A stretch of 38,296 bases of DNA, taken from Polaribacter sp. (GTDB lineage: Bacteria; Bacteroidota; Bacteroidia; Flavobacteriales; Flavobacteriaceae). Shown here in pieces: positions 4,888-7,738 of this stretch. Position 1 is the stretch's first letter, and each line of letters begins with the position of its first letter. The notes beneath the pieces are model-generated. The model was given only the letters and a program-made list of their open reading frames with translations. It was not told the DNA's origin and did not search any database. The position numbers were made by a program, and so were the translations under genes. Where the stretch lies: contig JANQTQ010000201.1 in the NCBI GenBank assembly GCA_030731625.1, positions 1 to 38,296 on the forward strand, read 5' to 3'.

Positions 4888-5796
4888 ATGAAATTTAACA
4901 ACATTTTAGAGACTATAGGTAACACACCAACAGTAAAATTATCTAAATTATTTCCGAACGCAAATGTGTGGATAAAACTAGAAAAAGTAAATCCTGGTGG
5001 AAGCATTAAAGACAGAATTGCCTTAGCAATGATAGAAGATGCAGAACAAAAAAACCTAATTACTAAAGATACCGAAATTATTGAGCCTACTTCTGGAAAT
5101 ACAGGTATAGGTTTGGCAATGATTGCCGCCATAAAAGGCTATAAATTAACCTTGGTAATGCCAGAATCTATGTCTGTAGAACGACGAGCATTGATGACTG
5201 CATACGGCGCAAATATTGTATTAACGCCAAAAGAATTAGGTTTAGGCGGCACAATAGCAAAAGCAAATGAAATGGTTGCCAATACTAAAAATGCTTGGAT
5301 GCCATCGCAATTTACAAATCCTTCAAATCCTGAAATCCATCGTACAACTACCGCTTTAGAAGTACTAAATGATTTTCCTGATGGACTAGATTATTTAATA
5401 ACTGGTGTTGGTACTGGTGGACATATTACTGGAATGGCAGAAGTTTTAAAAGAAAAATATCCTACTTTAAAAGTATTTGCAGTAGAACCTAACGATTCCG
5501 CAGTAATTTCTGGAGACAAACCCGGCCCTCATCCTTTGCAAGGTATCGGACCTGGCTTTATTCCCGAGACTTTTAATATTAAAATCATAGACGGCGCTAT
5601 TAGAATTACAAAAGAAGAAGCTTTTGCAGAAGTCAAAAACATTGCAAAATCCGAAGGTATTTTAGTAGGTATTTCTACAGGTGCATCATTAGCCGCTGTT
5701 AGAAAACAATTGCAAACTTTAAAAGGTAATGAAACGATCCTAACCATGAATTACGATACGGGAGAGCGTTATTTATCTATTGAAGGACTGTTATAA
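4888..5796 (+). CDS. cysK: Cysteine synthase (O-acetylserine sulfhydrylase), PLP-dependent
   Basis: [28 protein letters not shown] (PLP lysine), [26 protein letters not shown] motifs. Confidence 0.92.
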
Positions 5797-5900
5797 TTAT
5801 TAAGAACATCAATTTTACTGTTAAAAGAAACCGATTGTATTTTTAAGTTTCACATCGGATAAAATTAAATACAAATAAATAAGAGGCTTTAGCTGTAATT

Positions 5901-6121
5901 GCGTCAAGGAGGAACTTTGTCTCGCATCAGGCTGCAGTTCAACACGGGTCAAGGTGCAGTTTGTATCGGGTCAAGATGGATTTTTTAAAAGTACTAGTAT
6001 AGTTCGTTCAAAATACTAGTATAACCTATGAAAAGTACTAGTATATATTTTAAAAAAATCTAGTATTTTTACAATATAGTGAAGCAACCCTTAAATGCGG
6101 GATCAGTGCAAATCTTGTTTA
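5901..6121. repeat. Degenerate tandem array, ~10 units with 22-nt period (one unit 23 nt)
   Basis: Units: 5901 GCGTCAAGGAGGAACTTTGTCTC; 5924 GCATCAGGCTGCAGTTCAACAC; 5946 GGGTCAAGGTGCAGTTTGTATC; 5968 GGGTCAAGATGGATTTTTTAAA; 5990 AGTACTAGTATAGTTCGTTCAA; 6012 AATACTAGTATAACCTATGAAA; 6034 AGTACTAGTATATATTTTAAAA; 6056 AAATCTAGTATTTTTACAATAT; 6078 AGTGAAGCAACCCTTAAATGCG (poor match); 6100 GGATCAGTGCAAATCTTGTTTA. Confidence 0.7.
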
Positions 6122-6216
6122 AAGATATAAAAAAAAGGGAATTACAAGGTTCATCTTTATGAAAATAAATGAACTTTATAAAAATCTTGACAATTAAGTT
6201 TCAAATGCCTAAAATC

Positions 6217-6248
6217 AAAAAAACCAAGCAAATTTGCTTGGTTTTTTT
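6217..6248. terminator. Intrinsic bidirectional terminator downstream of guaB
   Basis: Perfect dyad AAAAACCAAGCAAATTTGCTTGGTTTTT flanked by A/T tracts. Confidence 0.85.
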
Positions 6249-6262
6249 GTCTAAGTTTTAAA

Positions 6263-7738
6263 TTATCTTCTGCTATAATTCGGAGATTCTTTTGTAATCA
6301 CCACATCATGTGGATGACTTTCATTAATTCCGCTAGCGGTAATTCTTATAAATTTACCCGTTTCTTTTAATGTTTCAATATCTTTTGCTCCACAATATCC
6401 CATTCCTGCGCGCAAACCTCCAATAAATTGATGAATACTTTCAAACAATTCTCCTTTATAAGGTACACGACCCACAATTCCTTCTGGAACTAATTTTTTA
6501 ATATCGTCTTCTACATCTTGAAAATAACGATCTTTTGAGCCTTGTTTCATGGCCTCAATAGATCCCATTCCTCTATAAGATTTAAATTTTCTTCCTTCGT
6601 AAATAATAGTTTCTCCAGGAGATTCTTTTGTACCCGCCAATAAAGAACCTAACATTACGGTATCTGCACCAGCAGCAATTGCTTTAGGAATGTCACCAGT
6701 ATAACGAATTCCACCATCAGCAATAACAGGAACACCACTTCCTTTAATGGCTTCTGCAACTTCTAAAACTGCAGAAAACTGAGGAAAACCAACACCTGCA
6801 ATAATTCTAGTTGTACAAATAGAGCCAGGACCAATACCAACTTTTATAGCATCTGCACCAGCAGCAACAAGAAATTGAGCAGCTTCTGGAGTTGCAATAT
6901 TACCTACCACTACATCTAAATTTGGAAATTTATCTTTTATTGCTCTTAAAACATTTACTACACCTTCTGTATGCCCATGAGCTGTATCAATTACAACAGC
7001 ATCTACACCAGCATTTACCAAAGCCTCTGCTCTTTCTACAGCGTCATTTGTTACACCTAAAGCAGCCGCAACTCTTAATCTACCAAAAGAATCTTTATTT
7101 GCAATTGGTTTTTGAGTAACTTTGGTAATATCTCTAAACGTAATAAGTCCTTTTAATTTATAATCTTTATCAACAATTAAAAGTTTTTCTATTTTATAAT
7201 TTTGAAGAATTTTCTCGGCATCTGCTAAAGAGGTTCCAACTGCTGCAGTAACCAAATTTTCACTTGTCATTATTTCAACAATTGGTCTATTACCATCATG
7301 TTCAAATCGTAAATCTCTATTTGTAACAATTCCTTTTAGAATTCCTTCATTATCAACAATAGGAATTCCTCCAATTCCGTGTTCCCTCATGTTATTTTTT
7401 GCATCAGAAACAACAGCAGTTAAAGGTAAAGTTACAGGATCTAAAATCATACCGCTTTCTGCACGTTTTACTTTTCTAACTTCTTGAGCCTGTTTCTCAA
7501 TAGTCATATTTTTATGTAAAACACCTATACCGCCCTCTCTAGCCATGGCAATAGCCAAAGCCGATTCTGTAACTGTATCCATAGCTGCGGAAACTATAGG
7601 AACATTAATTGTAATATTTCTAGTAAATTTTGTTTGAATACTTACTTCTCTTGGAAGTACTTTAGAAAAAGCAGGAACTAATAATACATCATCGTATGTT
7701 AGCCCTTCTCCTAAAATTTTGTTGTTGTGTGCTGTCAT
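6263..7738 (-). CDS. guaB: Inosine-5'-monophosphate dehydrogenase
   Basis: 491 aa; [13 protein letters not shown], two CBS domains, [17 protein letters not shown] catalytic loop, [11 protein letters not shown]. Confidence 0.98.

Follow-up and report, generated by a model that had tools for sequence, protein, structure and literature searches.

In type II restriction-modification systems, the C proteins have a helix-turn-helix fold and about two palindromic C-boxes, whereas plasmid iterons are direct repeats about two helical turns apart which are bound cooperatively by protein. The genes of BrxR/CapW (WYL) regulators lie close to or divergent from defence genes. The array family described here is linked to a protein which belongs to HU-HIG (PF18291, HU/IHF superfamily) by profile and by fold, and the literature searched gave no description of a phased operator array for this family. 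Both the C-protein systems and this array family have a small DNA-binding protein, symmetric sites in front of its gene and adjoining restriction-modification genes; the array family differs by an HU fold, a phased array of about eight units and cargo of many types. With iterons it has in common the direct repeats at a spacing of about two helical turns and possibly cooperative binding, which we infer for the HU-HIG array; it differs by its chromosomal location upstream of a gene, its two unit classes and HU-HIG in place of a Rep protein, and no replication initiator (Rep) gene was evident beside the arrays from neighbour sequences and partial profile scans. The BrxR/CapW systems resemble it in where the regulator-type gene lies relative to the defence genes, yet they use an HTH-WYL protein instead of an HU fold, and one or two operators instead of a long phased array. 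The arrays are also distinct from CRISPR, as they consist of degenerate head-to-tail units of 22 nt without unique spacers, with the unit class conserved per array. Judged by eye, the array shows no integron attI/attC structure (GTTRRRY-type core half-sites, imperfect hairpin). In Rfam, no hit of the window (the entire analysed stretch of 38,296 nt from a Polaribacter draft genome) reached the gathering score; there were only weak hits below it.

Unit Structure of the Array

The original prediction described the segment 5901–6121 as about ten degenerate units in a 22-nt phase. The lag-22 autocorrelation of this segment is 0.508, compared with 0.270 ± 0.031 in dinucleotide-preserving shuffles, none of which reached the observed value (0 of 5000), and 22 is the strongest of all lags from 5 to 59, followed by 44. 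The phase is therefore real, although Tandem Repeats Finder picks up only the palindromic part of the array. The proposed division into two in-phase sub-families is confirmed by the relatives, which likewise have a distal GC/CAGTA half that shares its 22-nt phase with a palindromic half. The near-constant step holds for the overall phase, but the first step from 5901 to 5924 is 23 nt, as it is in the closest paralog on contig C85 of the same genome.

Using a family profile and row alignment with relatives, we assign four GC-richer distal units to positions 5900–5987 of the forward strand (GGGTCAAGGTGCAGTTTGTATC in the window, ACGCATCAGTATCTATTTTGTA in relatives), with the same layout on contig C85. 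Their rows start at 5900, 5922, 5944 and 5966, equivalent to 5901, 5924, 5946 and 5968 in the register used before. They are followed on the same strand by three palindromic units at 5988–6053, which are defined by sequence, repeats, family alignment and dyad covariation and carry TACTAGTA at 5992–5999, 6014–6021 and 6036–6043, exactly where it had been placed. The unit ATCTAGTATTTTTACAA at 6058, previously taken for a decayed palindromic copy, represents instead a distinct terminal unit of the family, which usually reads TTGTAGTATTTTTACAA. In the window it occupies 6054–6075 (forward strand) as AAAAATCTAGTATTTTTACAAT; it is kept family-wide as (T/A)TGTAGTATTTTTACAAA and forms the HU-HIG-proximal end in intact members. 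The family alignment closes the array at about 6075–6077, leaving eight units (5900–6075) instead of ten. The supposed units at 6078 and 6100 fall into a variable spacer of about 44 nt (2 × 22; 6076–6120, forward strand), which contains no array units and is kept in length, but not in sequence; in intact members, its counterpart lies within the leader that separates the array from HU-HIG. At 6121–6136 of the forward strand, alignment with relatives identifies AAAGATATAAAAAAAA as the counterpart of an AAAG(A/G)TACAAAA motif preceding the HU-HIG start codon. With its 22-nt phase and its distal, palindromic and terminal units, the stretch 5900–6075 belongs to the proposed family of HU-HIG operator arrays.

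Array Family and Linked HU-HIG Genes

A DNA search recovered array matches in 9 of 97 genomes, and four further matches in the draft genome itself bring its total to five copies. A profile built from 19 copies detected arrays in 31 of the 168 genomes of the genus Polaribacter, often several per genome. The copies share one architecture, usually with three to four distal units, three palindromic units (AATATACTAGTATATTTTACTA; three to four in intact members) and one terminal unit (AAAGTTGTAGTATTTTTACAAA), after which come about 44 nt of spacer lacking sequence conservation and the motif AAAG(A/G)TACAAAA. About half of the arrays are solo, and a small HU-HIG gene follows in about half. Two solo copies in genome G185 (L155 and L156) share 323 nt at 94% identity without homology of their flanks, which indicates that arrays are moved or duplicated; this pair showed neither evident terminal repeats nor a target duplication. 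Arrays also recur in several species at a trkH locus (L065, L071, L178, L181 and L257), in opposite orientations relative to trkH and with or without HU-HIG.

The gene following intact arrays codes for an HU-fold protein of about 132 amino acids. Five of these proteins scored 97 to 114 bits with PF18291 (E-values of 1e-28 to 1e-33), compared with a curated cut-off of 26.2, and an AlphaFold model with a pLDDT of 91.8 retrieved 4fmr (a Bacteroides protein) and HU and IHF chains as top structures in Foldseek. In Polaribacter, the ATG is usually located 62–76 nt after the last array unit. An array lies upstream of each of the 37 close HU-HIG genes examined, and a model-free scan of periods from 14 to 32 returned 22 as the best or tied-best period in 36 of the 37 upstream regions, which come from five genera. 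Outside Polaribacter, such arrays occur in Winogradskyella, Lutibacter, Aequorivita and Mesonia with an unchanged 22-nt step, but in some of them with different palindromes. The classes in the whole set are TACTAGTA, TTGTACAA, AWGTACWT in Lutibacter and TAGCGCTA in A. echinoideorum, and two classes co-occur within single genomes: P. glomeratus has one CTAG and one GTAC protein, while HU-HIG of P. filamentus is of the CTAG class. The earlier statement that the array is not an obvious promoter operator thus applies to the window position only, as HU-HIG genes directly follow the intact members. A phage origin was dismissed, as viral contigs contained no HU-HIG relative.

A Putative Operator for HU-HIG

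Several observations on the palindromes favour a protein operator. Their arms co-vary, with z-scores of 8.0 for C-G to G-C and 6.5 for A-T to T-A exchanges over 156 units, which are related and therefore do not represent independent events, and the symmetry disappears when the centre is shifted. Successive sites are spaced by exactly 22 nt in 96 of 110 pairs. The palindrome class tracks the HU-HIG tree with only 4 changes, compared with a mean of 10.4 after shuffling (0 of 200 as low), a match to which cis-linkage contributes, as it would by itself make the array class follow the tree. The most telling observation is the divergence between pairs: in a small, hand-chosen sample, six pairs of orthologs and close relatives that keep HU-HIG differed at 11 of 192 core positions (5.7%), but at 62 of 334 spacer positions (18.6%; p = 2e-5), whereas three pairs of solo orthologs showed similar divergence in cores (14 of 95, 15%) and spacers (20 of 168, 12%; p = 0.57). 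The constraint on the cores therefore goes with the presence of HU-HIG, and selection on solo arrays is unsupported by these three pairs. In mixed-class arrays, the symmetry is found within units (0.92) rather than between neighbouring ones (0.68), favouring dimer sites on DNA over RNA helices. The leaders of HU-bearing copies show a weak hairpin tendency (mean z of −0.9, p = 0.017); because of this weakness and its confinement to these copies, a conserved leader hairpin was discarded.

Among the three options offered by the original prediction (structured ncRNA, protein-binding array or relic), a protein-binding array is best supported, as a putative site, by dyad covariation, invariant helical phase, linkage to the gene of a DNA-binding protein and gene-dependent constraint. 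As judged from the sequences, we consider it probable that the array is a phased operator for HU-HIG, which controls HU-HIG and probably the adjacent cargo, and that the window array is an orphan copy. As 22 bp correspond to two turns, the units would be displayed on one face of the helix, where HU-HIG dimers may bind the palindromes cooperatively and form a bent or wrapped nucleoprotein complex. This complex would repress or tune the HU-HIG promoter in an autoregulatory manner and, in many loci, may also control the divergent gene on the distal side, which codes for restriction-modification, Gabija, type IV restriction or integron integrase functions. HU proteins usually show little sequence specificity in DNA binding, which counts against the operator reading, and control of cargo is not general, since no defence cargo accompanies several HU-HIG arrays (those with TrkH, typA or priA neighbours and those of Aequorivita and Mesonia). 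Proteins of the HU family are mainly seen as unspecific benders of DNA. If one subfamily has phased palindrome arrays of its own that evolve by compensatory change, it would represent a sequence-specific HU regulator, whose specificity could readily be tested with the different palindrome classes, two of which occur within single genomes.

Defence Genes beside the Arrays

The distal neighbours of HU-bearing arrays are mostly divergent (18 of 25), while the HU-side neighbours are housekeeping genes, and those to the right mostly end at the element. Among the distal genes are those for C5 methyltransferases, type IIG and type IV restriction enzymes and GajA, together with less certain PADLOC matches. 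Of 34 HU-bearing sites, about 15 have a PADLOC match within the first two distal genes, and four further sites carry an integron-type integrase or a Y1 transposase; the 34 sites comprise all HU-bearing ones with a readable distal side, and those in related species are not fully independent. The first PADLOC batches of distal neighbours were chosen partly by appearance, and the remaining sites were added for the quoted tally. As a control, the HU side yielded no PADLOC defence match in ten genes. AbiE and MzaB genes were found beside the solo arrays L150 and L151.

At the ttcA/SbcCD locus of three species (L270, L271 and L161), the array and HU-HIG are 90–98% identical, but the cargo is unrelated: a Gabija GajA gene, a set with a SMEK-domain protein and an AAA ATPase, and a RelA/SpoT-like set, the last being read from its sequence only. 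The swap point is fixed beside one conserved array (genomes G119, G120 and G044), with homology restarting at a single point about 140 nt outside of it, probably within the cargo leader. The defence-like cargo is exchanged here between SbcCD and the HU-HIG/array unit, and the junction has the conserved leader TTTCAACGATTTATAATCAACGTCAGCGAATTTCGTG. We tentatively suggest that HU-HIG and its phased array may form a plug-and-play control border for anti-phage systems, at which a sequence-specific histone-like protein would polymerise on a class-specific 22-bp array and set the expression of its own gene and of an inserted defence operon or integrase, the protein and its array specificity (CTAG, GTAC or GCGC cores) co-evolving. 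The family would point to bacterial immunity being under the control of an unstudied histone-like module. Because exchangeable defence cargo adjoins these arrays in marine Flavobacteriaceae, the arrays could help to find new defence genes and serve to study how such genes stay quiet until needed.

The joining of unrelated defence cargoes to the same array at one fixed point would also be expected if the array were a recombination or attachment site, at whose distal side an integrase inserts cargo with HU-HIG as a DNA-bending helper. The integron-type integrase found as divergent neighbour at several sites and the movement of solo arrays, exemplified by the G185 pair, fit this explanation. We nevertheless regard it as unlikely, because the two cargo junctions contain no att-type direct or inverted repeats, most such integrases of the genus have no adjoining array, and an operator, rather than an att site, should show the fixed distance to the HU-HIG start and the HU-HIG-dependent constraint.

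Solo Arrays and the Window Copy

The varied chromosomal sites of the arrays, the multi-copy genomes, the solo state of about half of the copies, the 323-nt duplicate and the lack of constraint in solo arrays could also be explained by a small mobile element consisting of HU-HIG and array, with MITE-like solo derivatives, which is maintained by its spread and has no regulatory role. However, no transposase, terminal repeat or target duplication was found, and the specific constraint on the palindromes of HU-bearing arrays, with compensatory change and class switching, argues against such an element, which we consider improbable and marginally less plausible than the attachment site.

The window array is flanked by cysK (4888–5796, forward strand; assigned from the ORF list and the sequence, with the gene name taken from the original prediction) and guaB (6263–7738, reverse strand), whose C-terminal part matches orthologs in 159 of the 168 genus genomes. 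Both genes have their 3' ends toward the array, just as stated before. A perfect hairpin with 17-nt arms and a T-run at 6216–6249, near the 3' end of guaB, is probably the guaB terminator. Of the 30 closest guaB loci inspected, only the one in this genome has cysK next to it. The place expected for HU-HIG (6137–6215, forward strand), directly downstream of the array, contains neither the gene nor a detectable remnant: eight HU-HIG genes align there no better than to shuffled sequences, while the paralog on contig C85, used as a positive control, scores 121 versus 31 and keeps a clear HU-HIG remnant. The same comparison removed a candidate remnant that had seemed plausible by eye (GGGAATTACAAGG). 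We therefore classify the window array, whose closest relative is this paralog (78% identity over 5891–6077), as most likely an orphan copy. We read it as being in decay, and the missing HU-HIG gene or remnant, together with two neighbours that both end at the array, suggests that it is probably without remaining function or at most a passive binding site. Since it is still well preserved, the loss of HU-HIG need not be old. The label of a relic thus suits this solo copy between two gene 3' ends, but the order and conservation of the architecture rule out a simple minisatellite. A further solo array of the same genome, on contig C157 (L055:1627–2921), has a full copy of a tsaE-like gene on one side and a shorter one on the other.

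Alternatively, solo arrays like that of the window might be active trans targets of HU-HIG, serving as nucleoid-organising or bridging sites. High-scoring arrays without HU-HIG do exist, as in the complete genome G016, which has a near-perfect solo array but gave no match to this HU-HIG subfamily. Yet the palindromes of orthologous solo arrays diverge as fast as their spacers, and the only close HU-HIG gene found in the 87%-complete draft genome, on contig C35, carries an array with TTGTACAA rather than TACTAGTA, which makes active trans targets quite improbable. Least credible of all is transcription of the array as a structured regulatory RNA, the ncRNA option of the original prediction, because the stable predicted fold of the window array (z of −4.2) follows automatically from repeated self-complementary palindromes, the symmetry of mixed arrays lies inside the units, and Rfam gave no match.

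Integrases and Other HU-HIG Loci

On contig C35 (L105/L183), HU-HIG is located at an SbcD-FKBP locus and adjoins a gene for a 114-amino acid protein. In P. glomeratus (L256), this gene accompanies a type IIG restriction enzyme, which is apparently absent at C35. More distant HU-HIG paralogs of the same genomes have no such array upstream, as judged by eye; four of them (L109, L110, L112 and L113) are preceded by another conserved non-coding region (GGTAACACTT ... AGCTTACCAA ...), which may represent a leader RNA or another operator.

The array was also considered as part of an integron-integrase element, which was rejected since most integrases lack an array. Integron-type integrases with an additional N-terminal stretch of about 90 amino acids were found in 32 of 57 genomes searched (L074–L091), including a copy on contig C85 (L053:1155–2309). 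The stop codon of the integrase gene is followed by an attI/attC-like site, ATATAACNAGTT, which thus lies at the other end of the gene and outside the array, and by cassette-like ORFs.
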